Source: Wolfiporia cocos (Eukaryota > Basidiomycota > Agaricomycetes > Polyporales > Phaeolaceae). From it: 64,000 nucleotides of DNA. The notes beneath the pieces were generated by a model. That model was not told where the DNA came from. It worked only from the letters and a program-made list of their open reading frames with translations, and did no database searches. Position numbers and translations under genes: made by a program. The stretch is from assembly GCA_029448655.1 (NCBI GenBank), contig JACCLO010000015.1, forward strand, positions 620,001-684,000, read 5' to 3'. Numbering within the stretch: the first letter of the stretch is position 1; every line of letters begins with the position of its first letter. Of this stretch, positions 12,842-44,404 are shown one piece after another.

Positions 12842-13494
12842 TGCCCCCAAAAGCACCATGTGATGTCACAGAGGAACCTGGAGTCCTCCTCTCGTGGTCA
12901 AAAGCGCAACTGCGATACTAATGAGGAAAGCAAGTTGGACAGACCGAAGAAGTGGAGCAAGCAGGATGCAGATGTGTCAAATGACCCCTTGTGTGAGGGA
13001 AGGTGTGTTGTAGAGGAATGAGAAGAGAATGGGATCCGTTTCAAGGTCAGACCTAATGCAGATTGTGCCTGGTACTGCTTAGGAAAACATTCCTCAAATT
13101 CATCATGGTGTGTATCATGTGAATGTTGTGTTGATTTATATTTGATGTGTATCCTCATATAGCTGAATGACTCGCAACACCTTGATCGTGATGCCACTGT
13201 TGATATGTACTTCGAAATATGGCTTTCAGAGGAGGAGTTCAAAACTGCTCAGGAACAGGGTATGGTTACGACCCCCCCCCCCCTGGAAGCACAGCTCAGC
13301 TGGATATGTCCTTGGAACATGTTTGTTTTCATCTTTGCAAAACATTAGGAAGCAAGCTCACAATAATTACAACAGGGTGGTCCACATGCAGGAGGAAAGT
13401 GCTTGTTATGGAGGAAGAGGAAGAGTACCACAATGGCCTTCGAGGGCTCTAGCCCAAAGAGTTCAGTGTCAGAGCATTCTACCACATTTCGCCC

Positions 13495-13905
13495 TCAACT
13501 GCATGTGAATCCCTTCCTTTGTCCCCAATCATGCCATCTGACCTCTGCATTTGATGGGAAAGGTGACATACAGACTAGCCCTACCACCACAGTGGAGGAT
13601 ACACCCTGTATTCCATGCCTCCTTGTTGAAGCCCTATAAGGAAATGCTGATACATGGAAGAAATCACCCAAGACCCCCGCCTGACCTCATCCAGGGAGAG
13701 GAAGAGTACGAAGTTGAAGCAATACTGAAAAACTGAAGATACTGAGGGAGAAAGCAATATCTGGTCAAGTGGAAAGGCTACCCTATGGGAGAAAACTCAT
13801 GGGAAGATGAGAACAACCTGACCAATGCCAAGGAAATACTGAAACAATATAAGGCACAATGGAAAACAAGGAGGTTGGTCAAGCCAAAGAAACAAGCATG
13901 TCCAC
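13495..13905 (+). pseudogene. Ty3/gypsy chromovirus integrase C-terminus and chromodomain remnant
   Basis: The end of a gypsy polyprotein: KVTYRLALPPQWRIHPVFHASLLKPY (13559-13636), the conserved segment that follows the integrase, then after a frame break EEEYEVEAILKN, a stop, and [29 protein letters not shown], a chromodomain with the YLVKWKGY core. Reading needs frame changes around 13730-13760, so the gene is dead. Just upstream (13495-13550) lies a block shared with 18765-18815 on the other strand, which does not belong to gypsy. Protease, reverse transcriptase and RNase H are not present upstream; the 5' half of the element is lost. Confidence 0.85.
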
Positions 13906-15034
13906 CAGGTGTACTACACCAACTTTCATTCAGAATGCTGATGCAGTGCCACTCCCCACCAACAGTTTCCTGCACCCTCCAGTTCATGATTGAGAGTATT
14001 TGCAATGACACCTACAGGTCCAGCACGCCCTTGCCTGGTACCACTCAGATGAACTGTTTGGAGGGCAGGACAATGGATGGACCAGGACGTTCAACACAAC
14101 ACAGGAACTTACCAGAGTATTCGACAACTATGGCTGGATTTCTGCCGAGCTCATATGGCTTGATACCCTCATACAGGAACAGCGATGGACCCTTAGGTAG
14201 ATGATCGACAACCTCATCAACAGCCTTGCAGACACAGCCACCACCCGAGTACAGCATGCCCACAACAACTTTGAGGACAACAAATATTCCTTCCCCCCAA
14301 GGGTCATCCCACCACCAAGACCCACCTCAGTATTCTCCCAAGCCAAGCTGGGAAGAATTGCACACCCATTTGATTTTATGGAGGGTGATAGAGTGATATT
14401 TCGACTCACTCCCACCACTCATCACCGCTGAAGAGATGGACCTCAAACATCGATGCCATTTACTGCTCCTGTGGGAGGCAATGAATAACTGACACGCACT
14501 CAAGTCCTGAGCCCTTCTAGGACTCCCTCACTGGGCCATGACTGGACAGGTCACCTGGAGACTATTTGTAGATCTCCTTCAGTCGAGATCATTTCCAGAG
14601 AGGATTTTGAGCATGCTGGAGCTCAGTGGAGAGAGGATGCAGACGCTATATCCCAACGGTTATTGTGAGTGGTGCATTGCTGAAACCATCATGAACATTA
14701 TGAAACAGGAGAGTATCTCTGCTACATCCCATCAAGATGCACGCCACCTCACCCATCTCAAGCAAATCCTTGCCACCGATGCAGATCGCAGAGACACTGG
14801 GTACTCGACTGTCCGGACTACTCTTTCCTGACTTGTCAGATCCATCAACTGGGTCATTTGGCTGACAAATGCAGGAGTTACTTCGCTAGTCAACATGGGG
14901 GAACACTGCCCACTCCTGATGTCTGGGACAGCCATGACAAGATCATCTACAATGAGGAGAATCTGGAGGTGACCTAGGAACGATGAAGCCAAAGAAAGTT
15001 CATCGAGGACAATGAACCCCTAGTGGAGGGGTGA
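13906..15034 (+). pseudogene. Degraded extra ORF downstream of gypsy pol, ending at the polypurine tract
   Basis: Broken frames follow pol. The segment at 14201-14395 (LINSLADTATTRVQHAHNNF, YSFPPRVIPPPRP, HPFDFMEGDRVIFRLTP) matches what I recall of an extra protein often encoded between pol and the 3' LTR of basidiomycete gypsy elements. Further pieces at 14538-14830 and 14880-14990 are interrupted by stops. The stretch ends in the purine-rich tract AGTGGAGGGGTGA at 15022-15034, directly before the LTR, as expected for a plus-strand primer. The function of this extra protein is unknown to me. Confidence 0.6.
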
Positions 15035-15459
15035 TGTTATGGACCCACATGATATTTAATTTCTTTTCTTTACAAACTGACCATGGGTTGAGTAGTTAGT
15101 TGGGACTCTGCATTCAACTGCAAGAGTCCATCAGTGACATAGCACTATTTATGACAACAGTCCTGATGCAACTCAGGACACTGTTTCATTGTCATCAGGT
15201 TCTAGTTCTTACACTTCTGCTCCATTCTTATTATCCCCTATGATGACTGGGCCTAACCCCAGATAGTATTATGACTCAACTAGGTGGAGCACACAACTGC
15301 TTCACTCCTGATACATTACAAAGTGCTGTATATCAATAAAGCTAGTCTTATCACAGTAGTAGTAGCATCAGGTCTTTGAATGAGACCTCTGGTAGCCACT
15401 CATGTTATAATCTGGAATGTAAAGGTTGAGACAGGCAGCTCAACCTTGTTGTAATAACA
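15035..15459 (+). mobile_element. 3' LTR of the truncated gypsy element
   Basis: It begins TGTTATGG right after the polypurine tract and ends TAATAACA, giving the inverted ends TGTTAT/ATAACA. It contains AATAAA near 15331. The matching 5' LTR is not in the window, so this is a 3' half element of about 2 kb including 13551-15034. Confidence 0.75.
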
Positions 15460-15579
15460 GAAGTCATATATTCGCTCTCAAACTTGTGTGAACTCACAAG
15501 CTCAGCAATATTTGGGCTCACGATATCCTCCCTTCATATGAGTCAGGATTCTCTTTTGACTTGAAGGAAGGACTGACTA

Positions 15580-16002
15580 TGACACAGGAATCTGTGTGTA
15601 CCGCGCAGCGGGGATATACCCCCATATATGATGAACTGACTAGAAGGAAGCCAATGATGGTTAGACCATTGAGTATAGAGCATCACGCACATGCAGGTAA
15701 GCAGTTGAGTAGACTCCCAGGGGAATGCCCCCTAGGCCGACAATACTAGTTCTGGGGAAACCCCAGAACGCTAACTACAGGTATTTATACATGTACGCTA
15801 CCCTAGCGACCCTGCCCTAAAGGCAAGGCCTGTGTGCAGTAGGCGTAACTATGTAACAAGTAGTAACGTATGTAACGTCATATGACAGCGCATAACCTGT
15901 AGAGATAAGTTTATCTACCTACGCATGTGCGGTTCCACTGGCATTAACCAGGCATTAGCGTATATCTTCAGGAAAAAGGTATGTCACCAATTTCTTGTGA
16001 CA
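15580..16002 (-). mobile_element. Solo LTR, family E, TSD GACTA
   Basis: It starts TGACACAGG and ends TTCTTGTGACA, flanked by GACTA at 15575-15579 and 16003-16007. The length is 423 bp. The body (ttctggggaaaccccagaac; tatttatacatg; ccctaaaggcaagg) resembles part of the LTR at 54974-55589. Confidence 0.92.
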
Positions 16003-16090
16003 GACTATCTATTTGACCCCACGAGAGTCAACAAGAATATGTCTATTTGACTCAGGGAAATAGATTGATATAACGACAAGTATATTCGAC

Positions 16091-18812
16091 TCATAACAGT
16101 GCACCAAAGCAGGAGCAGGCACATTTGTGGGATGCTCCTGGGTGCTGATGGGGACCAAAGATGTGGGGGGGGGCGAGAGCGGGCACTGATGCAAATTGCT
16201 CTTGAGAAGGGACTGATTGCATAAGTTGGGGGGCAGGAGCAGGCACTACCATTGAGTATTGCTTCTGGCACAGGTCAGTCTCTTCCTCACTGTCTTGGTC
16301 AGCAGTAATACTGGTCCACAGTTTGCTGGGCTCGCAGGGCACATATGAGTTGCACATGAACGATTGGCCAACTTGAGAACTTGAATTGTTGATCACAGGT
16401 GAAGGCATGAGGGGGGTGATGGCTGGGTATGGGACGGAGGTGAGTGTAGGCATAAATACCAGTGGTGAGGCAGGGGTGCTTGGCTCTGATGGGGGTTTGA
16501 CAATTTCTGTAGGCTTTGTGACTGGTACTGATGGTGCATTGTCCATATTGATGTAGATGACATCTGGTGATGGTGAAGTATCCAAATGTCCATTTGGCAT
16601 TGAGGCAACCTTCCTCTTCTTCAGTGGAGAACTACCTTCATTGTTGGCATCCTCTCCATCTTCTTCACTGTTGTCCAAATGATGCTGTGCCGACTGCCTT
16701 GACTTCCAACCTGAATTTGAAGCCTGGTTCAAGAACTCCATGTTGGGACCAGGACAAGACTGCTTGGCTCCCTGCAAACGTGTGAGCTTGTATGTACTGA
16801 CACAGTACTAATGACTTACCTCTGGGACAGTTGCTTCAATGATTCTCTGCAGTGTAAGTTCTGGCACTGATTGTTTTTCTCCTGCTCCAAGATCCTTCAT
16901 CTGCTGCCAAGTCCTTTTGAGCGGAGCAAGAGGGGTGATTCTGTCGACATTAGGTTCCTGAGCTCCTTTGTTGATTTCAGGCTCCTCGATGGATTTCATC
17001 ATTTGGTTGACAATTTCGATGAAGGCCATGGTTGAATGCAGAGGCATCTCAGTGCTTGGTGGGGAGGGAGGTGAACACTCTGGAGGACTCAATACTTCAC
17101 ATACAGAGACAACTGGCATGGGATCGGGCAGAGGTTGTGAGGGGTCTGGAAGCAACGTAGGAGCAGCATCAGTTTGAATAGCAAGAGCAGAGGTGTCAAG
17201 TGCAGAGTCATCCTGAACAGCAACAGCAGAAGTACCAGGTGCAGAGACATTCTGCATAGCGACGGCAGGGGCCTTCTTCAGTACTAGAGAGCTAATGTTT
17301 GCATCTAAGTTCTTGAACCATTCCATTTCAGCCAAATAGGCATTGCAGATCTTTGATATTCAGGGTCTAGTGGAGTAGATGGAACAGAACGACCTTCAGC
17401 CTCCATTGCCTTGAGAACTTCATGATTAGCGAGTTGCTACTCATGAATCCACTTGGGTTTCTCCTCTTTGGCTGAAGTCAGCAAGTGTGCTGGCCATAGT
17501 TAGGGCTGGTGGGCATGCTCACATTGTGGGGTGCAGCCTTGAGGCCTTGTGGGTTGCTCTGCATGAGCACAACATGCGTGGTGAGCTGGACACAGTGTAG
17601 CCCTTCGGGGGGCTGTTGCACTTGGCAAGCAGGCGCATGCCGCTGCTGCTCAGTGCAGTGAGGGCAAGTGAGCCTAGGGATGTGAGGAGGAGGGCAGAAG
17701 GGAATATGGTGAAGTGGGTGCCGATGCCTGCACGTGAGCCAGGACACAGCGCCGTTGTATAGAGACAGCCTGTCCTGGTTGGTTATGATGTTGATCCGTA
17801 ATTTAGATGGCTCACAAGGGGCATGAAAATTGTGGCAAATGGTTGATCAATGTTTGAGCTAGGAAACTTGAGTAAACTGTTTGCAGCAAGTTCACTATGT
17901 GCCTGGAAGATAGCATGAGCTACTGGTAATTATAAAAGTAAGTGCACACATACTTCCAGGCTGTGGCCCAAACTGGAACATAAAGTCAAATGGCATACCA
18001 GCAGCAGATTGTTGAGTGGCAGGCAGACATTGGCTTGGTTGATTGCTTCACATGAGAAGAGCAGTAGCCCGCCTCTTAGGTGGCTGCTTCGGCCAGCCGC
18101 ACTGTCCTGAGGTAAATATGGGTGCCTTGGGCACTATTGGGGCTGGGGCAGAGCCAGGTTGGGGCAGACTGTTGTGTGCAGATGCACTAGACATCACTGT
18201 TGTTTGGGCACTTTGCTGCATTCCCTGTGGTATGAAGGGATGTGAGATCTGAGCCAAGCTCCAGCTACTTGCAGGTAGTGTCATGAATGTAGTTCTAGGA
18301 GCAGAGTCAACCAGCATCTCAGACATGGGGGAAGAGTAGGCAGGGGTAGGAGTGGGAAGAGCCGGGGCAGAAGACTCAGATAATGGCATCACTGCCGGTG
18401 CAGATACTTTCGAGGATTTTGGGGCATCTGTTAGAGAAGAAGCAGCAGGCATAGAGGGGAAGCCAAGCAATGGAGGCAATGTGGGCTGCTCTGCCGACTG
18501 CTCTGTCAGCTGTTCTGCAAGCTTCTCAGACAATGCAGGTATGGAAGATGCCTGGAATCCTTCAGGAGTCACAACTGTTGGTGTCTGAGAGGCCAGAAAG
18601 GGGACAGGAATCAGCAGGGAGGACTGGCAATCTAGCCCATTATGGGCAACCCACTCATGTAGGCATGCTAATGACGCTGCCTCATGTCTCTCTTTTTCCC
18701 ACCTTGGGAGGTTCAACAAAGGAAGTGGTAGGTGCAATGAAGAGGGTTTTACTCTCATAGCCTGGAATGCAGAGGTCAGATGGTGTGATTTGGGATGAAG
18801 GAAGGGATTCAC
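16091..18812 (-). other. Pro/Ser/Ala-rich minus-strand ORF series, unrecognised
   Basis: Four minus-strand frames lie in order: 18812-18048 (254 codons, Pro/Ser/Ala-rich, ending GWPKQPPKRRATALL), 17747-17478 (with CPHCTEQQRHAPACQVQQPP, a possible metal-binding cysteine pattern), 17335-16808 (LAPLKRTWQQMKDLG) and 16777-16091 (acidic EEDGEDANNEGSSPLKKRKV, which looks like a nuclear localisation signal). They could be exons of one gene. A stop near 17420 and a one-base frame change near 17335 argue that it is decaying. The composition resembles the minus-strand ORF at 46396-46992, so this may be a multicopy, possibly transposon-associated, family. A hAT copy begins at 18827, just upstream of the first frame. 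No function is assigned. Confidence 0.4.
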
Positions 18813-18826
18813 ATGTGGTCAAGGGT

Positions 18827-20522
18827 TAGTGTTGCCGAAGTTCAGTTCAGAACCAAGGTTCAGAACCTGAACTGCCTGAACCGAACCTAGGTTCAGGTTC
18901 AGTCCAGGTCCGGTTCAGGGTAGGATGTTGAGGTTCAGTTCTTGGTTCAGGGGGGCCATGGGTACCCTTGAACCAGGTTCAAACCAGACTGAACCTTGAA
19001 CCACTTAGCATTCACATATTCTTGGTAGCTACTGGTGGATAAGTATTAATTACAATTATGGTCTTGCCATCCTTGCTATAGTATTGTTGCAGTAAGTCAT
19101 GGATAACTGGCTTCACCATGGCAAGTATCAGCACTCATACACTCCAGTCTCCTACTATGGCAAGAGCTCAACCCCATGTTGGAATTACTGTGCTTTCTGT
19201 GACATGGGGCTGCATTCACTGCTGTTATATGAAGTCAAAAATGTAGATATAGTGTTTCACTTCATATCCATGATCCTACTGTAGGTTATATACAGAACTG
19301 TCTAATAAGGTTTGTTATTGAGCTTTGCCTCAGGCTAGTTCACACTTGTTCTACTCATGGAATCTGATTACTGAACTGCTCAAAATGGCTGCCTTGAGTG
19401 ATTGTTGTGCATCAACAAGTTATGTTTTATCACTCTGAAGGAGACTAAGAGCCACTTCAGAATGCAGTGTGCTGCAGGCTAATTTAATTGCACAAGGTTA
19501 TATGACACATAAGCACACCAAAATGAGCCCACTTATGCTCCAGGATGATGCTGAAGGGATGAGGAAGGTGAAGCTGGAAGTCCCTATAGCCATCTAGGGT
19601 AGTTCAGCCACAATGCCGATCGCATGTCGATCATGTCCACACATTAAACTATCGGCATGCCACCTCAGCTTCGCAAGCTACAAAAGCCCAATCAGCACAC
19701 ATTTGCTGCCAAACCAGCCAAGAAAGGTACCCCAAAGCCACTGCTGCCAGTTCAACCCCAGTTTATGGCCCTGTTTCTTTTTCCTGCTATTTTTCCTCTT
19801 CCCTCCTCACTCCACCCCAAATCCTCCCTAGATCCATTCCATAAAATTATTTTACTGATTTTTCAGACTATTCTGCACTGTTTCATGGTTGCCTTCATGA
19901 CTCAGCCCTCAACCCCTGACAAAATAGTGAATTTCTAGGGTAGTAAAACTTGACTGTACCCTATACATTTAAGAAGTGACTAGAGGGCATAAAACAACAA
20001 GCATTTTAATTCGACTTTCATTATTTCCACACTATTAAATTTGCTGCTGCAGTCCAAAATCGATACAGGCTACATTCAACCGGTGAAACCACTCCCCTTC
20101 AACCTCTCGAATGCCTCACCTATCCTGGCACATCCTGACCTGCCTGGAGAACCCGAGAGAAAATATTTTTTCTGACAACAGCAGCAGCCCAATACATAGA
20201 TGCCAAATGGATGCTTGAGGCACTGCAAAACTTGAAGTGTGGTCATTCTAGCAGTTTAAATATTGCTGGGGATGAGGTATATCAATTGGCATACACAGAA
20301 AGGTACCCAGAGTTGGTGTCCAAAATATTATTTTTACACACTATAAAAGCAAGTGACTTAGCGGTCTGAACCTAGTTCGAACCTTGAACCGAACCTGCTG
20401 AACTGGTTCAGCAGGTTCAGTCCAGGTTCAGGTTCAGGTTCAGGCTCCCTGCAGTCGGTTCTGTTCTAGGTTCAGCCCCAGACCCCCCTGAACCTGAACC
20501 GAACTGAACTTCGGCAACACTA
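18827..20522 (+). mobile_element. hAT-like element copy 1 (GGTTCAG type), 1.7 kb
   Basis: Terminal inverted repeats TAGTGTTGCCGAAG...CTTCGGCAACACTA. Both ends carry dense arrays of a GGTTCA motif (18840-19010 and 20365-20510). An inverted copy lies at 30401-32891 and is colinear apart from one insertion. I see no transposase, so it is non-autonomous. hAT membership is inferred from TIR form and size and from the 8-bp TSDs of related elements here. Its right flank AATGTGAG (20523-20530) is the reverse complement of CTCACATT found beside the other copy at 32892-32899; its left flank does not match. Confidence 0.85.
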
Positions 20523-20951
20523 AATGTGAGCATGGAGAACCAGAATGCAAAGATGTATGCTGCCCAGACAGACGTGAAGAATGCAGAAATCGTCATCAAA
20601 GGGTGGCAACGCCAGCAAGCTACCAGGAGAATAGAAGCTTCCATTAGGCAAGAGGGGCGCATGAGAAGGCTGAGACATTGGAGGCTCCTCATCGTAAACT
20701 GCCACTCCTGAGAGTCTAGGGTGCTTATGTGAGGGTCTATCGACATTCAGGTCCGGCTCTTGCAGGCTAGACGTCAATGTATGCACTTCATTCGCCTCGC
20801 ACTGCTTTGCAAGGTGCTTCCAAATGGTGCGTGATGCTCTCCGGATTTTCAGGGGTGCACAATTGTAGCATGTACACATGCGATCGATAACCCATGTCCT
20901 GAAGCCGCTCTTTCTGTGAGTGTAAACTGGTATATCTGCTACACCACACAC
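20523..20951 (-). pseudogene. Plavaka-type transposase, first exon, separated from its body
   Basis: The minus-strand frame from ATG 20951 reads DIPVYTHRKSGFRTWVIDRM, then a C-x-C-x2-C cluster (CTCYNC) with a later His (IWKHL), the N-terminal zinc-finger-like start of Plavaka/CACTA-type fungal transposases as I recall them. It runs into the hAT element at 20522. The rest of the gene is found on the opposite strand from 32892. The junction bases ...CTCACATT here and CTCACATT at 32892 are the two halves of one hAT target duplication, so this exon was once joined to 32892 onward. The splice details of the exon are unresolved. Confidence 0.65.
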
Positions 20952-21219
20952 CTGAATAGTTTAAAGTCTAGACAATTCCTCTAAGACTGTATATTGTAAC
21001 TGCAAGAGCTCATGTTTGAGTTAATGATGAGCAGCTTTAAAGAGATAAGTGCGGGGCAGCGCCAGTAGATCTATAGCGAGCGAATGGACTTAGGGATTTT
21101 GCGCGTGCAAGCTCAAGCTGATGTCATTGCATGACTGTGGCTAAGTTACAAATACGAACGTTGCACCCGTATGGGACATGGGGGAGAGTCATGATGTTGT
21201 TGTAGTGACGTCGTATTTA

Positions 21220-21907
21220 AGGCTCCAACCATATAATGTATATACCATGTATACATGGTTTTTTATATATACTATATACATGTATTTACACATGGCCGAG
21301 TCCATGGTATATACATGGTATATTATATGGTATATGGTTGTTGTGAATGCATTCATATTAGACCCTCAAGTTGTTGTTTTGAATATGTATTTGAGCTGGT
21401 TATGTGTCTTACAGATTGTATGGTGCAGTGGCAATATGAGATTTGGACAATCTGGTAGCCACTGTGCAAATGCAAAGATGTTAAGTCATAGTTCACACAC
21501 TCTGCTTACCCTCTCATTTGGCAGAAGGTAAGATCAGATCTATATTTATGCTATATATTATCCCACATAGTGATTGCATCATGCATTAGACTCATGTGTA
21601 AAAGTTTCCCATCATCTCACACATTGTGCACAATTCCTAAGCCATTCCAGCTACTAGTGTGGCTGTTGAATACTGAACACCAATTTCTTCCTTGCATCAG
21701 CCAAGTGCTGATACCTGTGGCATGTTGTTGAAGGAGGAGACAATCTCCATAGCCATATGGGCAAGGCAATGGCTATGTCAAGATGTCTGAAAAATATACC
21801 ATCTGAAAACCATGTAAACCATGTATATACTATGTATATACCATGTATATACCATATACCATGTATTTACTGATTTCCTGTACATGTATATTATATGGTT
21901 GGAGCCT
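21220..21907. mobile_element. MITE with TA target duplication and palindromic TATATACC arrays
   Basis: Inverted ends AGGCTCCAACCATATAAT...ATTATATGGTTGGAGCCT, flanked by TA at 21218-21219 and 21908-21909. Near both ends are repeated palindromic ATGTATATACC-type words (21237-21340 and 21800-21885). There is no coding capacity. TA duplication suggests mobilisation by a Tc1/mariner-type transposase. It lies just upstream of the CCAAT and TATA elements of the DUF6532 gene. Confidence 0.8.
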
Positions 21908-21923
21908 TAGTCATGCAGCTCCG

Positions 21924-21950
21924 GCCAATGCGCAGCAAGTATATAAATAC
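21924..21950 (+). promoter_or_regulatory. CCAAT and TATA elements upstream of the DUF6532 gene
   Basis: CCAAT at about 21924-21928 and TATAAATAC at about 21942-21950, some 90 bp before the ATG at 22034. They start 17 bp after the MITE end. Confidence 0.5.
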
Positions 21951-22720
21951 GACTATCAATCTGTTACTGACAATCACTTTAGACTGACTGCTTTTGCCGT
22001 GACCCGGCACTGACAAGCAATCGCACTCAGACGATGCCACTGGATCACATGGAGCTGCTAACACAATCACTCTTGTAGTGGCTGTTTCTCATAAATCTTG
22101 TATCCCCAGAATCGAGTCTCCTACCCCTGCTGATGATGATGAGGATCCCATTGAGTCATTTCATACATCAATCTCAAACTTGAGTCAGCAGCATGAAATG
22201 TCCCCCTCTGGGGATGAAATTTCAAATGCTGATGCCAGTGAAGACCTCGAGCAAAATGTTGATATTAACTAAGAGGCATTGTCAATATGATTTCTCTGTT
22301 CTACAGATATGCTGACTCATACTCACCAGATTCCTGTATTTCAAGACAATGAAGAGATCAGCTATAGGTGAAGAGTTGTACCTGATGATGCTCTTGTTGG
22401 CCGAGTAGCTAACAGCAGCCAAATTGCACTTTCAAGCAGTGATGACACCAATCAGAGCGACCATACAGAGAAGGTGCCACATGATCACCACAGTGACAGT
22501 GGGGCATGTAGCTCTTCCCTCAGCAGCCGCTTTCTTCCTTTCAGATCTAGAAGTCCAGATTGACACAAGCACGATCTCAAGCAACGGCTCAGGGGAATAT
22601 GACTCGCACAAAGGCGTATTCCTGATCTGAGGCTACTCAAGGCATATAAGGCCAAGACAAGTCTGGGGTGCTACTCTGCTCGTCGGCCAGTATATATGTT
22701 GTTCTACTGTTTGTACATGT

Positions 22721-23808
22721 TGTCACAGATTATTTCTGGCATTTCAGCATTTTTCCCACAATTAATAGCAATTATCCGGGATTACTACGTCCAACTACAA
22801 GTTATCCAGGGGTTATCCCCTACTTGCCATCTCTTAATCCTTAACCGGATTACACGCTTACATAATGCGCTAAACACACTACTAAGCAACCCTGACATCA
22901 GCATAACACACTAGTCATACGACATTACGAATACCAATACCGTCTAAGCCTAACCGGCCCAGCATCGTATCTCAGTCTAAGACCCATAGCAACGTCATCG
23001 CTACGTCACCACAATCCAGCCTTATGGCTGCATCTTCAGGCGTCGCCACACCTTCACATAATAATGGCAACACCAACAAACATCGCTATCCGCAAGGTTT
23101 CATTGGTTATGGCCTTCTCGGCCACCCACGGTATCGGTCCTTCCATACCACTGGCTTCTCCATCACGGCATTGCCAACCCCCGATCTTCTGCCATCACAG
23201 CGAATACCAAACTCCAGACTCTAGCTTCGCGGCTCAGTCCTCTTGATGTTCCAGTAACTGTCCGGTCCGAACATTAAACACATGCATTGGTACCTTTGGG
23301 CCAATTGCACAACTACCTCAGCGTCTCGCCTTGGTAATCCATTCAGTGCCAACCAACAGCCATATTACCTCACGGTTACCGGCTCTCGGCCTTTCATGAA
23401 TCTGGGCTGCGCCCCTTTCTAATAATAAACCCTCGTATCCTACTGGTGTGGCCATTACCGGCCCACACAGCCATTGTAGATACGATCCAAGTAAGTAAGA
23501 TTACAGGTAAGCTGTAGCGCCTTAGCAACAGCCCCATAACCGTATTGGTCCATATACTATACAGTACATACAACCATATGAACTAGAGTTCGGTCCTTCC
23601 CTTTATGGTATCAGCCACCACTCTCCTTATGGCATGTACTGTACGGTAGCACATGACCATGTATTTAAGCTAGGGCTGCACGCCTCTAGACTTCAGTCCT
23701 ATTCTTCTCGGCTATGCCGCTGAAGCTATTACCTCCCCTTTGGCTGCACCTGATACCTCTCCACACCAGCTAGGGAACCTGATGAGTCCCAAGAAGTGTC
23801 TTGTGTCA
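22721..23808 (+). mobile_element. Solo LTR, family A, TSD CATGT
   Basis: It starts TGTCACAGATTATT and ends CTTGTGTCA, flanked by CATGT at 22716-22720 and 23809-23813. The length is 1088 bp. TATTTAAG near 23661 is a likely TATA element and gives the strand. It is one of the cleanest copies of the family. Confidence 0.95.
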
Positions 23809-23813
23809 CATGT

Positions 23814-24400
23814 GTAGGTTCTGTATAGTATTACATAAGCTAATAGTCCGTGTTTATCATACATAACCCTATCCTGGGTGTAGAGCTACAATCAGAGTGT
23901 CCGGGGTCTGATGTATGCACATGTGGGGTGTTTGGGGTCCTGCACATGATGCATAGGCGGGCACTAAGATAAGATAAGGGTTGTCTCTAGTCGCAAGCAA
24001 GTTGGAGAAAATCGGCTTGTGACACAGATGTAGCTAGCAACAGTTGAACACATCGATCATTCACTGGCCATGACTACAGTTTTACACAGCTCTCATATTC
24101 AACTCCAGCTCCGGCACAAATCTCACATAGTCAGCCATCCTGCTCTTCTAGTGACATGCCCTCTAGGAGTCAGCCAACACCACATCAGCAAACTCCATCA
24201 TCTCATGCTCAGGTATAATTGGATAAATAGCATTGCATTTGCCATATTTACAGCATAAACATTCTAGCGATGAGCTGCCAGTCTCAATCTGCAAGCTCGA
24301 AATGCAGCAGCAGCCTCATCAAATCCATCCACTTGCTGTCACACTCATGAGGTAATCACAATTATATAATTGTCAATGACTGCTTAGTGTGCATTAGCAG
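23814..24400. other. Non-coding stretch between LTR and DUF6532 exons
   Basis: Only short frames. I see no domain or repeat with defined ends; it may be intron or degraded exon sequence of the interrupted gene. Confidence 0.4.
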
Positions 24401-25817
24401 CCCCAATGGACTGACGATGACAATGATGCTGTACAGCATGCAGGAACTACAATTGCTACTGGACAGCATGGCAATGGTAGCTCCAGCAATGCTACTGACC
24501 ATTCAGACAGTGAGCCTGAAGTCGGCGAGCCAGAAGTTGGTGAGCTGGAAGTTGGTGAGCCGGAAGTCGATGAAAGTATTCGCTATTCCAAGGTTACTGC
24601 AATAACCCTCACAGCGGGTCATCGAGTCAACATAAGGTCCCAGAGTAGACATCTACAGTCGGTGCTCTATGCGGCCATGGATATGACATATGAGCGGCTC
24701 TGCTTTGATGATGCATTCCCTGATGTTGCACGGTTTCAGCATGAGTACATGCGAACGATTCTCTACAAGTGTGCATTGAAGGTTGGGGAGCCTGCAATCG
24801 CACACCGTATTTTTTATGATAATAGCTATGCTGTGTTGCTGGCTGAGGTGGTGCGTGTCACACAAACCACGCTAGCACTGTGCTGACAACATCTAGCCTG
24901 AGGCTCGAATTTATCTATTCCGTCGCGACATTAAACAAGCATGCACACGACATCTCTTGTTGTTGTATGGCCTTACAGGTGATTATGCACTTCAGGTCCG
25001 ACAATTGCTTGGTGATATTATGTACATCTTTCCTGCCAATGCACAGGTGCGTTATTCTCTTCTTACCTTGAGACAGTCCTACAATGCCTATTTCAGGGTC
25101 AGCCTGACCGTAGCAAGCCATATCAGCATTCAATTATTACCCGTGTCATAGCTTCAGTGTTTTTTCAGAAACGCCAGAATGCGACTCTCAGACTGTTTCC
25201 CCGGTTTGCTGCACACACCAAGAATGGCAAGCGCATGTATGAGATATCAGCATCAATTGTAGTGCTTGTGGCTACTGCAGTTTGTCAACTTGCCATTGAA
25301 ACATGCGACATACTGACAGTTGGATATAGGTGTTTTGCTGTCTCAAGGAACACGAAACTGGTTTCAAGAACACTGTTGACTTCTCTCAAGACAGTTTTGA
25401 GGAGACTTACAAGACACACCTTGGGATTCTCGAGGTTCTCGAGCAAGAGAATCCAAGCTCTTACCACCGCTTGATGGCTACTGTTTTTGATTCTGCCAGG
25501 TATGTCAGCATTTTCGGTGCACCGCAATACTGATTAACTGAATGCTGGCCTTCAAAGCACTGGTCATGCCTCTACAGTTCAGGAGAAAGTCCGTGACGCT
25601 GTTTCTTTCATTCGTTTCAATGATTTAGAGTAGGTACTTTTTACTATATTCCACATCATGCAGTGCTTCGTCATTCCTTTACCGTAGTCATAGAAGGTGG
25701 ACACTCTTTTTACAGCCTTCTATGTATCAGCATAATGTCAATGAATACCCCATCGTTCCTTCCATGAATGCGTGATTCCATATGAACAACGGCATTGGAG
25801 AGCCTGCTAGCGGCGAG

Positions 25818-26006
25818 CTATTCCAATTTAATTCATACAGAATTAGATCTATTCATGCTAAATTAGATCAAATTAGATGGAACTAGGATCTAGCTTAATT
25901 AAGTTATACAGGGGGGGGGGGGTTGTAAAAGTCTAATCTTCCTAATCTTCTAGTTCGAGATAATTCGAATGGATTAGATCTAATTAGACTCTAATCATAC
26001 TGAATT
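25818..26006. mobile_element. Small AT-rich inverted-repeat element (possible MITE)
   Basis: Imperfect inverted arms (ttccaattta...cagaattagatctattc on the left; its counterpart gaatggattagatctaatt...gaattggag on the right) flank a 12-base G run at about 25911-25922. No clear TSD was found. It lies at the truncated 3' end of the broken KDZ gene. Confidence 0.5.
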
Positions 26007-28094
26007 GGAGAAGTCAAATTTTCCTGATGAAATCGATACTTCGACTTGTCAATGCCTCCACGGCTGACACTTGAGATTCTGCTAACCACATCCGTGGTGC
26101 CTGAGATTCCGTTGACTTACACTTGACCCCTGCCTCTGTCTGTCCTGCCCCATTCTTCACATCACTGGCTGGCTCATCATCGCTGTCTTTGTCGTCGTCT
26201 AGGTCGTCATCCATGAGATCCTTCACATCGGCGTTGTATATGTTGGGGTTTGTCATCCCATCACACCCCTCTTCCTTCAAAGCCACCTCTACCACCGGTG
26301 ATATGAATTGTGCACAATGCGTCTCCAAATCCTCCATGCATGCCCACAATTGGTGTAATTTCTCCTCTACAACTGCTGCATCCACTTTGCTCAATCGACT
26401 CCTGTTCATATCATGTAGTAAGGATACCCTGCATAACAGATTAACATCTGTCATGTCTCCGGAGCAAAGGTACTCATTGCATTTCCTGTAAGGCAATTCC
26501 CTCTTCAATCGAACTGATTAGACCATACTCATTCGCATCCTTCGCCCGCGTTTTTAACTCCATGGCCTGTTCCAATTGCGATGGCACTGTATACCCATTA
26601 ACCACAGGTCCAAACTCCCACTGTCCCTCAACTCACCTTTAGTCTTTCAAGGTTCGTAGGGATTTTTCAGGCCCTTATGCTGCTTCACATCCACCACCCT
26701 TGCCAGGAAATCACCTTCCTCCTCATGCCAGTTGTCCAAGGGAAACCCCGAGGCCTGCGCACTTGCTTCAAGCTTCCTGAGGTGGTTGACGGCAGCTTCC
26801 TTTTGGACAAGAGCTTCCCTGTATTTGCCTGCAAGGTCATGTGCTGTTTTTGTTCAGATTAAGGATCAAATGTGCAATGGAATGAAGACTCACCCATGGA
26901 GTGCGCTCTCTTCATGTTCATGTCTGAATGATGGTTGTTAATGATATCACGGCAATGCCCTGCTGTTATCTCGCACATGCAGGCACCTAGTGCATTCAAC
27001 ACTGCCCACACTCTCTCTGATGCCTTGCCATCCGTCATGCCCACACCGGGTAGCAGGTAGAACAAAAACAAAAATTGACAAAGCACCTTATGTGCGTGCT
27101 CATGTAACTTACCCACCCCACATCCGGTTTCCGGGAAGTCCGCTGAAATGATGCTATTGTACTCTGCCAAATGTTCGTGCACCTTCACCATCTGTTTGTC
27201 GAAGTTGATAGCATATTGACAGTTGATATCGTACCCAGAAATATGGAGGAGGAGGTCCATCCATGGCTGTAAGCCAGAGAGCATCGCACAATCAACATTG
27301 GCGAATCTAATGCACTGTAAGTACAGTTATGTGCTACAATTGCCAAAGACATACCTTTCGCCCTTCTGCAGATCTACTCCGCCCACTGGCAATACAAACA
27401 TGTGCCACGCACACATTAACCCCATGGTGCCAGATACCTTTGACCAATGTCCACCGTAGCCCATGGCTCCAAACTTATGATGTGTAGATTCCTGGAATAT
27501 GCTCTTAGATCTCCCAAACATGAGCGCAGTCAGAGACATACCTCATGAGCCACCATTTCCACTCAAGCTAAGAATCGAGCACAGTCATCCTCGTCTGCAA
27601 AACACACTGCCCCCTTTGTCAAGGGTCTATTGTTAGGGTCCAAGGGCTTTTTGTGCATGTTCTGATGAAAATTGCCATCCACAGTGTGGAAGAGTGCATC
27701 GAGAAAGCTGCCAAAGTTCAATTAGAGAGGTCTGTTATTCCCACATGCCATATGTACCATTTGTCTTTGGCATGCTGTTTCCAGCCAGGATCCATATTGA
27801 TGTTGGGCTGTGGACAGGCAGGGCACCAAACTGCCAAACTTCTTGCAGGTAGATTGGCAGGTGGATGGATGCCTGCCCATTTTGTCACTTGTAGAAATGT
27901 GTATTCCTGTTGAGCAGTAAGAAACTCACGATACCTGTCCTGAGAGATTTTAGGACATTATCAGTGGTGACGAGGAAGATGGCCCTCACTGTGACATCAT
28001 TGATGCCAATGTCATCCATTGTTCAGCATAGATATGTGATGTAGTCTGTCACAGTTTATTCTGGGACATATAGCATTTTCCCTATAATTATAGC

Positions 28095-28513
28095 TGACAC
28101 GGTCTCGTACCGTGGGACCACGCAGTGGGGAAAGCCTAATATACGTCGTTATTGAGGTCATAACGGCGTTGACGTATGTCGTTGTACCCAGACTAGCGGT
28201 CATGAAATAAGAGCGTCACCAGCACGCATAGTCACACAGTGAGAAGAGACAGGGGGACTAGCCCCAATGTCGAGAATAACAGAGATGGGGCTGTAAGGCC
28301 ACCATCTCGCGCTATATGTACATGAGGGGAGGCGCTATGTAACTACCCTAAAGTAAGGGTCTGTGCACCCTCTACTATGAGTCACATGGGAGCGCACTAC
28401 CTAACGTATGAACACATGAGCGATAAGGTATCAGGGAATGTAGCTAAACCTTGTCAAACCAGAAGATAAACTATCAGAAGTCACGTGATCGCACTCGCAA
28501 ACGATCTGTGACA
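28095..28513 (-). mobile_element. Solo LTR, family C, TSD ATAGC, nested in family A
   Basis: It starts TGACACGGTCTCG and ends GATCTGTGACA, flanked by ATAGC at 28090-28094 and 28514-28518. Across the TSD, family A sequence continues directly (taatAGC into AGCaatttatcc), as in the copy at 22721. Confidence 0.93.
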
Positions 28514-28988
28514 ATAGCAATTTATCCGGGATTTATACGTCTACCTACAAGTTATCCAGGGGTTATCCCTTACTTGCCATACCATTAATCCTTAACTGAA
28601 TTACCCGCTTACAAGGGCGCTTACGCGCTACTAAGCAACCCTGACACAGCATAACACGCTAGTCATACAGCATTACACATGCACTATCACCGTTAAGCCT
28701 AATGGCCCGGTATTGCATACAATAGCCTAGACAATAGCAACATCATCGCTACATCATCCCGGTCCAGCCCTTCAAGGCCAGACCAACCACGTCATAAGAT
28801 TCGCCAAGCATCACAATGACAACCATCAGGCGTGGCACGCCTCGCATAATAATGTCAACACCAACAAACATCACCTTACTGCAATGTACCATTGGTCCGG
28901 CCTACACGGCCTCCCACGGGCTCCGCAACTAGCGTAACCCCGGTCTCCTGCCATCACGGTGAATACCAAACCCCGGACCTCACCTCAC

Positions 28989-29742
28989 TGACACAGACTC
29001 ACCTGAGGTTGTGGGACTGGCCCTAGCCAGGGGTATTCCCTATATGCATAGACGCAAACGCCTTGGACATGGCGGTTAGGAACTCACACACGCACGAGTT
29101 GTGGGCATCTCTGATCCCAGCATTCACGTAAGAGAGAGAGCCTCTCACCCAATCAACGGCGGCATACCGGCTAAGGTTGCGCCTACTGGGATCGATGCAC
29201 CACCTACTCCTACACTACTAACGAGGAGGTCACAACGTACCGACCATGTAGTGGGCTGCCCCAGGAAGCCAGAGCCAGAGGGCGATGCACTTGTCTAAGC
29301 AGGGCCCCAGTGCCCAGAGGGTAGTGGACCAGCGCACACAGAGCCTCAGAGTAAGTAAGAGGGTTTGCACCCCATTGCCGAGAATCTCAAAGATGAGGCT
29401 GTAAGGCCTCATCGTCGTAGTATATATACATGCACTTGCAGCATCAAGTATCTAGCATACCCTAAAGAAACGGTCTGTGCGTGTATCTATGGGTTACCGT
29501 ACAAGTGACGCGTGATGTATCTACCTGTGACTGTTATGAATCATGAGTCATGTGAGTATGAAGGGGAGCGTGCGGCCCTAGCGTGCATACAATCTAATAG
29601 GTCAGGTGCCTTAATAAGATAACAGGGAGCGAGGTGATGAGGTGACGAGGTAAGAGACAGGGAACCGCGCACATCCCAGCGCTGCTGTGCCTACAAACCG
29701 AGGGAAGAGGTCAAGATACCCCCTAAGGAAGATACTGTGACA
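28989..29742 (-). mobile_element. Solo LTR, family D, TSD CTCAC/CTCAT, nested in family A
   Basis: It starts TGACACAGACTCACC and ends ATACTGTGACA. The flanks are CTCAC (28984-28988) and CTCAT (29743-29747), one mismatch. Its first 60 bases resemble the reverse complement of the end of the LTR at 53487-55750 (TGTGGGAC.GGCCCTAGC), so the two are one family. Confidence 0.85.
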
Positions 29743-31273
29743 CTCATGGCTAAGTCCCACAATGCCTTGGTAACCATTCGGTCCAAGCATTAACACATGC
29801 CACGGTACTACCCGTCCAATGGCATTACAACCTCGGTGCCTCGCCTTGGTCAGCACACGTATCCGCCCTCTGGCATATACACCTCATGGTCCGACTCCGT
29901 CGGCCATGCGTTATACCTGGGCTGTGCCCATATTCACATGTCCATCTCGTATGGCATGATCACTCTCCCTTTTACCATTGGCTCGGCCATTACCAGCCTT
30001 GCATGTCATTCATAGGTAGAGTTTGAGTTCAGCCCTCACCCTTATGGCAAAGGCCACCACTCTCGTTTAGGGCATAGACTGTATAGTCACATGCCTTTAC
30101 ATATTCATGTATTTAAGGTAGGGCTAGACACCTTTACACCTTAGTTCTATTCTTCTCGGCTACGCCGTAGAAGCTATCTCCACCCCTCTGCTGCACCTGT
30201 CTGCCTTTCCACACCAGTTAGGGAACCTGGTGAGTCCCACAAGGTAGCTTGTGTCATAGTCATGGGCACTCATCTGGGCTTGCAAGGACAGTTTATGAAA
30301 GTCCCGCATTACGTGCATGGTGAATACTGTCGCAGGCTTGGTCCATGAGGCAGGAAATAACCCAAATTCAACCAATTGTAGTGGTTCAGCTTTGGTGAAG
30401 TAGTGTTGCCGAAGTTCAGTTCAGTTCAGGTTCAGGGGGGTCTGGGGCTGAACCTAGAACAGAACCGACTGCAGGGAGCCTGAACCTGAACCTGAACCTG
30501 GACTGAACCTGCTGAACCAGTTCAGCAGGTTCGGTTCAAGGTTCGAACTAGGTTCAGACCGCTAAGTCACTTGCTTTTATAGTGTGTAAAAATAATATTT
30601 TGGACACCAACTCTGGGTACCTTTCTGTGTATGCCAATTGATATACCTCATCCCCAGCAATATTTAAACTGCTAGAATGACCACACTTCAAGTTTTGCAG
30701 TGCCTCAAGCATCCATTTGACATCTATTGGGCTGCTGCTGTTGTCAGAAAAAATATTTTCTCTCGGGTTCTCCAGGCAGGTCAGGATGTGCCAGGATATG
30801 TGAGGCATTCGAGAGGTTGAAGGGGAGCGGTTTCACCGGTTGAATGTAGCCTGTATCGATTTTGGACTGCAGCGGCAGATTTAATAGTGCGGAATAATGA
30901 AAGTCGAATTAAAATGCTTGTGACCGATTTTCCTAAGTCCTGAGCATATGTCTCGAGTGCAGCTCTTCATCTGACCTTGTCTTGGTGTAATTATATGTAT
31001 TTGATGCCCTCTAGTCGCTTCTTGAATGCATAGGGTACAGTCAAGTTCTACTACCCTAGAAATTCGCTATTTTGTCAGGGGTCAAGGGCTGAGTCATGAA
31101 GGCAACCATGAAACAGTGCAGAATAGTCTGAAAAATCAGTAAAGTAATTTTATGGAATGGATCTAGGGAGGATTTGGGGTGGAGTGAGGAGGGAAGAGGA
31201 AAAATAGCAGGAAAAAGAAACAGGGCCATAAACTGGGGTTGAACTGGTAGCAGTAGCTTTGGGGTACGAGGGA

Positions 31274-31492
31274 CTTCAGTCAATTATCTTAATCTGCCAA
31301 CTGCCCTTTGCTTAAGAAATGGCAGTTGCGAGCTAGGTTTGCATGGAGATTAATCTGCTAGCTGCGGCAGATTAATCTACTGTGACAATAAAATGATACA
31401 TCCAGGATTCGAACCAAGGACCTTAGCACAGATGAGAATAAGAGCATCGCAGTATACATTAACTAACTGAGCTACAGTGCAACTAGTGTCTG
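31274..31492 (-). mobile_element. tRNA-derived SINE, left arm
   Basis: On the minus strand the head has a pol III A-box-like GTAGCTCAGTTAGTT and B box GGTTCGAATCC, followed by a tail with paired words (GCAGATTAATCT, AACTGCCATTTCTTAAGC, AGTTGGCAGATTAAGATAA) ending TTGACTGAAG. The head does not fold into a normal cloverleaf in my reading, so this is a SINE and not a tRNA gene. Confidence 0.75.
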
Positions 31493-31772
31493 CACACTTT
31501 TAAGCAATATATAGAATATTTTGTAAAGTTCATTTTCGTGGTTTAACATCTCCCATAACACAAATACAAATGAATCTGCCTCTAAAGACCTGTGATTCCA
31601 GTGCATTCAGCTTTCCCATGGTGAGTTGCTCCAGGTCAGGCATGGTAAATCAAGCTACCACTATCATTGATTTCTTCATGCTTGTTGTAGCAGTTAGTTG
31701 CCTTGATGATTTGCGAAAATTGTGTGTAAAATTTGCGTTATATATATTTTAATTGGTCAAAGGTAACTGTTG

Positions 31773-31980
31773 CCACTATGGCTCAGTTGGCTAATTATGC
31801 CGCGATGCTCTTATTCTCATCTGTGCTAAGGTCCTTGGTTCGAATCCTGGATGTATCATTTTATTGTCACAGTAGATTAATCTGCCGCAGCTAGCAGATT
31901 GATCTCCATGCAAACCTAGCTCGCAACTGCCATTTCTTAAGCGAAGGGCAGTTGGCAGATTAAGATAGTTGACTGAAACT
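31773..31980 (+). mobile_element. tRNA-derived SINE, right arm
   Basis: The same SINE on the plus strand, with A-box-like ATGGCTCAGTTGGCT, B box GGTTCGAATCC, and a tail ending GATAGTTGACTGAA. It is nearly identical to the left arm from the anticodon region to the end. Confidence 0.75.
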
Positions 31981-33448
31981 CTACGGGGTACCTGTCTTGG
32001 CTGGTTTGGCAGCAAATGAGTGCTGATTGGGCTTTTGTAGCTTGTGAAGCTGAGGTGGCATGCCAATAGTTTAATGTGTGGATGTGATTGACATGTGATC
32101 AGCATTGTGGCTGAACTACCCTAGATGGCTATAGGGACTTCCAGCTTCACCTTTCTCGTCCCTTCAGCATCATCCTGGAGCATAAGTGGGCTCATTTTGG
32201 TGTGCTTATGTGTCATATAACCTTGTGCAATTAAATTAGCCTGCAGCACACTGCATTCTGAAGTGGCTCTTAGTCTCCTTCAGAGTGATAAGACATAACT
32301 TGTTGATGCACAACAATCAATCAAGGCAGCCATTTTGAGCAGTTCAGTAATCAGATTCCATGAGTAGAACAAGTGTGAACTAGCCTGAGGCAAAGCTCAA
32401 TAACAAACCTTATTAGACAGTTCTGTATATAACCTACAGTAGGATCATGGATATGAAGTGAAACACTATATCTACATTTTTGACTTCATATAACAGCAGT
32501 GAATGCAGCCCCATGTCACAGAAAGCACAGTAATTCCAACATGGGGTTGAGCTCTTGCCATAGTAGGAGACTGGAGTGTATGAGTGCTGATACTTGCCAT
32601 GGTGAAGCCAGTTATCCATGACTTACTGCAACAATACTATAGCAAGGATGGCAAGACCATAATTGTAATTAATACTTATCCACCAGTAGCTACCAAGAAT
32701 ATGTGAATGCTAAGTGGTTCAAGGTTCAGTCTGGTTTGAACCTGGTTCAAGGGTACCCATGGCCCCCCTGAACCAAGAACTGAACCTCAACATCCTACCC
32801 TGAACCGGACCTGGACTGAACCTGAACCTAGGTTCGGTTCAGGCAGTTCAGGTTCTGAACCTTGGTTCTGAACTGAACCTCAGCAACACTACTCACATTA
32901 CTCTTCCAATGGCGAGTGGCAATATTCTTCCCACTCAGGAGGTACTATGGAGCGTCTCTCAACAACGGATCCTGAGAGCAGTGACAAAGACGAAGACGAA
33001 CAATATGATATTTCTGAGGATCCTCTTTATGAGCAAAATCGGGCCATGGCTGATACTTCACACTTGGACGACACTGATGACTTCTTGGACGTAACTCCTC
33101 CTGCCCTCTCCAAGCATCGTGCCATCCAGAATGCATACATCCATGCCTTTGCAAATTCGGCTTGCTGGAATGGGACACACGCATCTGCCGAGGATTTTTT
33201 GACTGTGATACATGCTACTATACAGACTCTCCATGATCCAACTGACTGTGAGCTGAATGAGCATCTGGCATGTATGGCTCGGACACTCAGGACTGCTAAG
33301 AAGCGACTTGGTGTAGATCCTGACGACTCTATCATCTATTACATACTCTGCCCTATCTGCTGGAAGTGCTATGATCCCCAGGAGCTCACTGATATTCAAG
33401 ATCCCCATCATCATCAAAATGCAAGATGGCTTATCAGTACTGGAGGCG

Positions 33449-33518
33449 GCTTATCAGTGCTGGAGGTGCTTGCCAATTGAGGCAGAATCTTATCTGTACA
33501 GATAAGCACTGATAAGAT
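33449..33518. repeat. Nested hairpin: 12-bp inverted arms and an 18-bp perfect palindrome
   Basis: CTTATCAGTGCT near 33449 pairs with AGCACTGATAAG near 33506, and the palindrome CTTATCTGTACAGATAAG lies between them and overlaps the right arm. It sits near the left end of the 5.6-kb insertion and may belong to its terminus. Confidence 0.5.
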
Positions 33519-34691
33519 CAACAGCAGAGTGGCATACAATCGCCACTCTGAAGGCATCTTATAAGCGTCAGTCAAACTCAATGTGTGACTGGTAAACTAA
33601 TTACCTGACTGGAATATATTTGTTGTTTCATAGTCAGGCTGGCATATGTTTTGTAATGAATGGTTGCAGCTTACCTTCATAGATATACTGCAACCTGTGG
33701 CATGTGCCACACAATGTGGCGTGCACTATAACAGACGAAATGCTCACTATACTTCCCATGGACTCTTCACTACATTCACTCTGTTAACTTTGTTGTGCTT
33801 TGATTAGTACGTTTTATAATTCTACTGTACTACAGCATGCAAACTATAGCCTGAGGATATTGTAATGAGCTGATGCACTGTAGAAGTAGAACCTTTGGTG
33901 ACATGGAATACTAGTGGTATAGGGCCCTCACAAAGCATCCAGATGAGGCAGCAAGACGATCTTTGAGCAGTTGCACATCAATGATGTCATAGTGGACACA
34001 TGACGTGAGTTTGCAGCAGCCATTGAGCTTTTATGGTAACTTCATTACCCAATCGAGTGATATTACCCTAGTCATCCTTCAATTGCTATCACTAGTTTAG
34101 GTTCTGTCATCTTTTCAGTCAGCTCCTCAATGTGTCACTCCTGTAGCTTATCTACTGGCTCACAATGCTCTCCTTTAGTGATGTGCAAAGCCTGGCTCAG
34201 CTCAAAGCCCGGGGCTTGGGCCCAGCTTTGAAGGGCTCGGGCTCAGCGAAATGTCAGGCTGGGCCCTCCCTGATGGCTCAGGCCAGGGCTTATGGGCATG
34301 ACACAGAACCTTGTGTCATCCCCTACATACAGCCCATAGCCCTACACCCATCCTAACACCTAACTCCCAACGCCTAACGTGATGGCCCAATAGGTCCTAG
34401 TGGGGGTGTCTAACATCCAGCCCCTAGGGTTGGCTACCAGGTCGAGAGTCTGACGCTAAGGTCGAGTAGAGAGGCAGACAGCAGAGTGGGGTATCACGCA
34501 GAGAGGAAGTGGTTCAGGGGGAATGCACCCCTGTAATCGACATTGAACTGTCTGAGGAGTATGCCTCAGACTGGACTAGTTTATATACACGCGGCGCAAC
34601 ACAAGTAGATACCCTTGCCCTAAAGCAACATGGCCTGTGCGCATGCACCTACGAGTGAGTACCTAATCACGTCACGTGCTACTTACGTTAC

Positions 34692-39090: not shown

Positions 39091-40263
39091 TAGTGTTGCG
39101 AGGTCCGGTCCGGTCCGGTCTTTTACCTCTGTGAAGCGGGACCAAGGACCAGGACCAGGACTGGACCGACTTTAGTACCCCAGGACCGGACCAAGACCGA
39201 TACAGGACCGGACCACGGTCCTGATTCGGTCCTGGGACTGGTCCGGACCAGTCCAGGACCGCAGACTGTGCAATATAATGATAATATCAGAGAGTGCTCA
39301 AGACAATGCACCCAACAAGAATAACAATGTATCTACATACTTTACAAGGAATCCCAGTAAATAGAGTCATCTGTAGTGCCCTCTTCATCATCCTCCTGAA
39401 TAAGGATGTAATCATCAAGCATATACTCAACCTCCTCAACAGCTTCCAAATTGGTGTGCAAAAAGTCCACAATCCTATCAGCCCAATGGCTCTGCAAACA
39501 TTTGATCCACTCAAATACATTAGCCCCCAAGCAGGAGCAGCAGTCAGTGGAAACCTCTTTGGCCCAAGAAAAGAGATGTTCACATGCCACTGAGGATACA
39601 GGTATGGGCAGAATATCCAACACCATTCATCCAAGAGTAGGGCATACATTGTGATGTTTCTATAAGACCTATGATAAGTGTACAACATCAATATACTTGA
39701 TGAACAATATGCCACACACCAAGCCCCATCATTTTGCCCAACTTACTATAGACTCAGTGAGTCTCTTGCTATCTGAAAGCTTGCTTGCAACCACACAATT
39801 AGCCTGCAACCCACTCAGCATTGCCACACCATTGCAATGCCAGCAGCTGCAGACCTCTAATTACAACATTCTCTGCCTTACAAGCCTGAACTACCCTCAC
39901 AGTCCAAATAGGGTATTGTACATCCAGCCAACATATAATTTGATGAAATAAAGCAGGGTAGAAGTCAAGAACATGTCAAATATGCAAACAAATGATCCAA
40001 CAGATTCTTGAATAATATGTTGTATGTTACATTAGGTAAATAGCAGTATTGTATAGCATGCCTAAGGCCAGCTTTGAGACCGGTCCTGGACCGGTTATGA
40101 CCGGTCCTGGCCGGTCCTCACAAATTTCAGTATGTGCAGGGACCGGGACCAGGACCACAGTAGGACCGGGACCGGACCGGACCGTTAATCGGTCCTATCC
40201 AGTCCTGGTCCCGGTCCTGTCCTTGGTCCTCAGCGGTCCCTAGGACAGGACCTCACAACACTA
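39091..40263 (-). mobile_element. hAT element (GGTCC type), TSD GTCAAACG, with transposase remnant
   Basis: TIRs TAGTGTTGCGAGGTCC...GGACCTCACAACACTA; GTCAAACG is at 39083-39090 and 40264-40271. The ends carry arrays of GGTCC/GGACC. The duplication lies inside the Plavaka frame (AVKRTH), so removal restores coding sequence. Confidence 0.95.
39342..39626 (-). pseudogene. hAT transposase C-terminal dimerisation domain remnant
   Basis: The minus-strand frame has DILPIPVSSVACEHLFSWA then CLGANVFEWIKCLQSHW, the hAT C-terminal dimerisation pattern (P..S..CER.FS ... L.....E.L..LK.W). This confirms the hAT assignment of 39091-40263. The N-terminal BED finger and the catalytic core are gone; only about 95 codons remain. 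Confidence 0.8.
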
Positions 40264-44400: not shown

Positions 44401-44404
44401 GAGT

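Follow-up and report, generated by a model that had tools for sequence, protein, structure and literature searches.

An inversion bounded by two hAT copies in Wolfiporia cocos, with flanks that point to transposase rather than a single recombination

Inversions that end in transposable elements (TEs) are easily ascribed to passive homologous recombination, but reading all four flanks of the elements narrows the cause: two exchanged flank pairs indicate a single recombination, whereas one matched pair with two orphans indicates either a transposase or a chain of recombinations. Here we describe an inversion of the latter pattern, bounded by two copies of a hAT transposon, in a 64,000-nucleotide stretch of Wolfiporia cocos DNA (C7:620001-684000; hereafter the window). 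The closest described systems represent both causes. The Ac/fAc elements at maize p1-p2 produce inversions by reversed-ends transposition (RET), which is predicted to yield in one step an inversion with a deletion, new target-site duplications (TSDs) at both junctions of the inversion and the loss of inter-element DNA (PMC8225341, and PMC2775673 Fig. S1). Inversion 2z3 of Drosophila buzzatii is attributed to ectopic recombination between Galileo copies, and both TSD pairs were exchanged without deletion or duplication (PMC2775673).

The window resembles the maize inversions in carrying a hAT copy at each breakpoint, in the 8-bp TSD that lies exactly at both element ends, in the position of the copies, one within the inversion and the other beyond it, and in the apparent loss of inter-element DNA (PMC8225341). 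It differs from them in size (~10-12 kb rather than ~81 kb), in being a resident product in the genome of an apparent fungus, and in that no transposase is seen in either copy. With Galileo 2z3 it shares two copies of opposite orientation between which a TSD has been exchanged, but only one matching pair is present here and the DNA beside both other ends is missing (PMC2775673). The inversion is a new natural case of an already known kind of rearrangement, and its mechanism is probably transposase-mediated rather than a single recombination. Huang and Dooner reportedly described macrotransposition of linked Ac/Ds elements in 2008, and Hua-Van et al. are said to have described, in 2002, impala rearrangements by non-standard transposition in a fungus, Fusarium; impala is a Tc1/mariner element, not a hAT. 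No fungal hAT inversion by alternative transposition was found in the titles and abstracts searched; most subscription papers lay outside that search, which is thus not proof that none has been published. Passages of PMC6679389 and PMC9594970 treat TE rearrangements in general terms only.

Flanks of the two inverted hAT copies

The inversion is defined by the following features.

18827..20522, + strand: hAT copy 1, 1696 bp, both termini kept (TAGTGTTGCCGAAG...CTTCGGCAACACTA)
30401..32891, - strand: hAT copy 2, 2491 bp, with a nested 724-bp insertion, in the opposite orientation to copy 1
20523..20530, + strand: AATGTGAG, half of an 8-bp TSD, at the right end of copy 1
32892..32899, + strand: CTCACATT, the other, inverted half of that TSD, at the right end of copy 2
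18819..18826, + strand: TCAAGGGT, the unmatched (orphan) flank on the left of copy 1; the genome holds 0 occurrences of GCAACACTA directly before TCAAGGGT, allowing up to 1 mismatch
30393..30400, + strand: TGGTGAAG, the orphan flank on the left of copy 2; the genome holds 0 occurrences of GCAACACTA directly before TGGTGAAG, allowing up to 1 mismatch
20531..30392, unstranded: the inverted segment itself, 9.9 kb from copy to copy, or 12.4 kb counting copy 2, as RET implies

Both copies belong to one family with terminal repeats TAGTGTTGCCGAAG, and identity across their aligned blocks is 96-98%. The greater length of copy 2 arises from its nested insertion and from the absence of 76 bp in copy 1. 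All four terminal repeats are complete to the last base, with substitutions in the terminus at 32891. The inversion is real, and each of its breakpoints carries a hAT copy. A preliminary description of the window had reported the inverted copies, right flanks that are reverse complements of each other and the want of a matching left flank on either copy, and each of these observations holds. AATGTGAG and CTCACATT are exact reverse complements, and the ends that carry them are one 3′ end and one 5′ end. Within each copy, the left and right flanks differ at 7/8 positions, so that neither copy taken singly has an 8-bp TSD, and the two left flanks compared with each other (TCAAGGGT against CTTCACCA, the reverse complement of TGGTGAAG) agree at 0/8. 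The interval of about 10 kb given in that description corresponds to the 9,878 bp between the copies; with copy 2 included, it becomes 12,369 bp.

An exact match, direct or inverted, is expected by chance among the four cross-copy flank pairs with a probability of ~2.3e-4, based on the 8-mers of the window. We also compared the flanks of 149 sampled hAT ends (145 outside the window and 4 inside), which form 10,956 between-copy pairs. None of the 9,835 pairs on different contigs matches exactly. Four same-contig pairs do so at three places, namely the window pair, a composite on contig C4 and an inverted duplication on contig C1 that accounts for two of the four. Partner half-sites that would complete either orphan left flank have 0 occurrences genome-wide with up to one mismatch allowed, and among the scored matches, drawn in part from the best 40 candidates, the junction-side flanks have no other near-identical copy in the assembly.

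Each left flank lies in a gene that is cut at the terminal repeat.

16094..18826, - strand: gene G, a low-copy gene truncated at the left terminus of copy 1; its relatives L052 (C3) and L054 (C45) extend past the cut
26634..30392, - strand: KDZ transposon gene, truncated at the left terminus of copy 2; KDZ transposase domain PF18758 at 26862-27326 (E 4.8e-24)

The KDZ gene is itself interrupted by another repeat, and its paralog at 61117-62670 extends past the insertion point of copy 2. Beside copy 1, nothing matches the KDZ continuation (z 0.2 in either orientation, compared with z 30.5 for the flank itself as a control), and beside copy 2 nothing matches the continuation of gene G (z 0.02). 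Against 32900-33900, the latter scores z 2.6 (1/200 shuffles), which we do not take as homology. Because the two continuations do not lie beside the other copy and the half-sites are absent genome-wide, DNA appears to have been lost beside both insertion sites.

The two copies are unevenly diverged. Their outer parts show 0/558 and 1/319 differences, with 2/13 at the extreme left terminus, and the middle part shows 31/801; in other compared copy pairs that differ at all, the divergence of the middle is ~2x that of the ends. With the rate ratio set to 1.9, the deficit of end differences has a P of 2e-4 including the terminal 13 bp and 9e-6 excluding them; at a ratio of 2.5, the values are 2e-3 and 1e-4. 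Counting the terminal 13 bp somewhat weakens this test of homogenisation and leaves the odds of the readings below unchanged. Since the ends are near-identical and the middle is divergent, recombination has probably moved sequence between copies 1 and 2, whether earlier than the inversion, at the same time or later.

The insertion nested in copy 2 consists of two inverted ~213-bp arms (31275-31487 and 31766-31977; see also 44397-44476) with a stretch that looks tRNA-like by eye; a tRNA scan of these arms with bacterial settings calls no gene.

The hAT family across the genome

The family terminal inverted repeat, TAGTGTTGC(C/T)GAAGTTC and its inverse, has 206 forward and 198 reverse matches with up to one mismatch in the genome (64.4 Mb in 76 contigs, the longest seen exceeding 5 Mb), compared with 2 and 1 for the control. 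These ~400 ends correspond to ~200 copies. Both flanks were read for 68 copies outside the window, a non-random sample of 24 among the best matches to copy 1, 4 with odd or distant ends and 40 chosen in favour of neighbouring pairs; copy L028 and eight single ends, with one flank read each, fall outside this count, as do some listed copies that were not read. An exact 8-bp TSD is present in 57 of the 68, one with a single mismatch in 4 and none in 7. The absence of a TSD from both window copies is therefore unusual in the family and not unique. With ~200 copies, most of those read having intact TSDs, the share of rearrangements made by transposase becomes countable in one genome.

Two of the seven TSD-less copies form a composite at C4:1047037-1051317 (within L180, G000:C4:1046930-1051430). 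They lie in direct orientation 2.13 kb apart, each with both ends; the inner flanks are unmatched and the outer flanks are both GCAGCTGA, which is a macrotransposon pattern. As in linked Ac/Ds macrotransposition, two direct copies share a single outer TSD, as if moved as a unit; unlike it, the composite is a resident product of the genome and not a new event. Its inner 2.13 kb holds a ~1-kb repeat found at many places (40 of 279 candidates scored) and a ~0.5-kb diverged relative of that repeat, and the remainder has no long match among the candidates scored. Because two TSD-less copies make up this macrotransposon-like unit, transposase in this genome probably uses the ends of different copies together, and the occurrence of the pattern in the same hAT family makes the involvement of transposase in the window testable.

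A source of transposase is suggested by a 29.9-kb copy with a perfect TSD (C4:2203762-2233665), to whose right end a hAT dimerisation region adjoins (PF05699, E 9.2e-15); this copy is probably a transposase-bearing element enlarged by nested insertions. Two pairs of hAT ends lie ~30 kb apart between perfect 8-bp duplications, this one (G000:C4:2203762-2233665) and a 30.9-kb unit on C5 (G000:C5:1388645-1419546). We considered both units as composites and rejected this, as each has one left and one right end among the rows listed; given the single end pair in each and the transposase domain on C4, a single element with a nested insertion is likelier. On C1, two hAT copies (G000:C1:1818702-1819660 and 1845316-1846274; L104-L107) have 20-bp flanks mirrored on both sides and are probably part of an inverted duplication of a larger stretch. 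Another TSD-less copy, G000:C10:318598-320336 (L031), lacks ~25 bp just inside one end. Within the window itself, 39492-39662 (- strand) encodes a degenerate hAT dimerisation domain that contains stops.

Origin of the inversion

The four flanks need either an inversion with deletion made by transposase (by RET or through a hybrid element) or two successive recombinations among three insertions. We consider it somewhat likely that hAT transposase made the inversion by RET. The process would start from two nearby copies pointing the same way, E1 inserted in gene G (with TSD TCAAGGGT) and E2 inserted in the KDZ transposon (with TSD CTTCACCA), separated by a stretch M. RET needs such a substrate, a pair of direct copies in close linkage (PMC8225341). 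Transposase would grip the facing ends, the 3′ end of E1 and the 5′ end of E2, so that M would be dropped along with the inner TSD halves, and both ends would be inserted at CTCACATT, within another gene ~10 kb beyond E2. As each copy would still be attached to the chromosome by its other end, the segment from E2 to the target would be turned round, leaving E2 inside the inversion and E1 just outside it. We infer how the copies were ordered and oriented beforehand, the loss of M, and the agency of transposase rather than recombination. What is observed is that the copies are inverted, that they share one inverted 8-bp repeat, located at a 3′ and a 5′ end, that the left flanks are orphans with missing half-sites, and that both left-flank genes are cut at a terminal repeat. 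The window fits the predictions for RET, with the loss of DNA judged from the missing continuations. RET is favoured by the exact inverted match at the right junctions only, set against 0/8 at the left flanks, and is supported by the pairing of a 3′ with a 5′ end, as transposase requires, by the retention of TSDs in most of the family (57/68 exact), by the C4 macrotransposon pattern, which speaks for transposase joining ends of different copies, and by the existence of a family transposase on C4.

The preliminary description had instead proposed that two ordinary insertions, inverted to each other, underwent one homologous exchange. The inverted copies, the TSD exchanged at the right junctions and the signs of sequence exchange between the copies would all agree with this, but the left flanks ought then to form an exchanged pair too, and they agree at 0/8. 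Nor do the genes cut at the left flanks continue beside the other copy, so that the copy which this model would need between gene G and KDZ (copy A) could not be a plain insertion. As a complete account, the single exchange is rejected on the left flanks; it survives solely if copy A had lost its TSD in an earlier event, and we regard it as very improbable. One variant, in which a later inversion of 13552-18826 removed the true left flank of copy A, is also rejected: that flank would be TCCCATCA, which agrees with CTTCACCA at 4/8, the rest being transitions, a search there for the KDZ continuation finds nothing (z 1.3, 23/200 shuffles), and the sequence from 13552 onward, which by eye we take to be the end of a Gypsy polyprotein, counts against it. 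An assembly error, with the interval misoriented between the repeats and an intact insertion at CTCACATT in the true chromosome, seems more doubtful still. Inverted repeats of 1.7-2.5 kb are places where assemblies can flip, but the contiguity of this one suggests that it is probably built from long reads, the 724-bp insertion sets copy 2 apart from copy 1, and the orphan left flanks would still require a deletion event. We give as little weight to insertion of a hybrid element formed by copies that lie on homologues and not on a single chromatid (PMC2775673 Fig. S1 B); its predicted product is likewise an inversion with deletion, according to the legend of that figure, and nothing in the window distinguishes it from RET.

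The strongest competitor of RET is a two-step homologous recombination, which we judge possible, though rather unlikely. From three ordinary insertions, the direct copies in gene G and KDZ would recombine and delete the DNA between them, leaving one copy with mismatched flanks; this copy would then recombine with a third, oppositely oriented one inside the split gene and so turn the interval round. This sequence of events yields exactly the same four flanks, so that the choice between it and RET rests on economy and on the behaviour of the family. Several observations weigh against RET here. The apparently homogenised ends of copies 1 and 2 are not required by RET and are explained naturally by recombination, and the probable exchange of sequence between the copies is the main reason that we place RET no higher. 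TSD-less copies are not very rare (7/68, five of them outside the C4 composite), which indicates that recombinant or deleted copies occur and that a TSD-less copy A is possible. A separate, unexplained rearrangement of gene G also adjoins copy 1, and part of the gene survives at 12125-13551. Two-step recombination, however, takes three linked insertions and two events, compared with two insertions and one event for RET, and does not readily explain the macrotransposon pattern of the family. RET is therefore favoured over it. More tentatively, the family may hold a natural series of alternative-transposition products, comprising the inversion with deletion in the window, the macrotransposon at C4:1047037-1051317 and the inverted duplication containing a copy at C1:1818702/1845316, in which transposase would repeatedly have joined ends of different copies.

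The split gene and gene G

The right junctions appear to lie in a gene whose two parts are now separated.

20523..20960, - strand: left half of the split gene, a 146-codon open frame up to the junction with a Cys-rich motif and no significant relatives
32893..33477, + strand: right half of the split gene, a 195-codon open frame from the junction that resembles P0001 and the same-genome paralog L095

It had been proposed that flipping the interval restores one gene with one insertion and a perfect TSD. Joining the reverse complement from 20523 to 32900 at one CTCACATT does restore a single target site, and all three frames are open across it for 99, 216 and 210 codons. The gene halves are less certain than claimed. 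The long left and long right frames are not continuous; to connect them would take an intron or a frameshift close to the junction. The right half has one relative in the database, P0001, found among 462 candidates with 44% identity across 56% of the 294 query residues, and matches L095 at z 15.4. For the left half, the search returns the query alone, and comparisons with the exon open reading frames of L095, L097 and L099 stay within shuffles (z 1.3, -0.3 and 1.3). The name Plavaka, used in the preliminary description, is not borne out by domain matches. The Plavaka model PF18759 has 67 matches genome-wide, none within C7:620001-684000, and in Pfam neither the right half nor P0001 nor either of two paralog pieces matches Plavaka.

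Gene G is itself broken. Its halves at 12125-13551 (+ strand) and 16094-18826 (- strand) are inverted relative to each other and contiguous in L052 and L054, and one of the breaks adjoins copy 1. A stretch of ~58 bp is found at both broken ends, like the product of a staggered-break inversion, and many of the differences between its two occurrences look by eye like CG decay.

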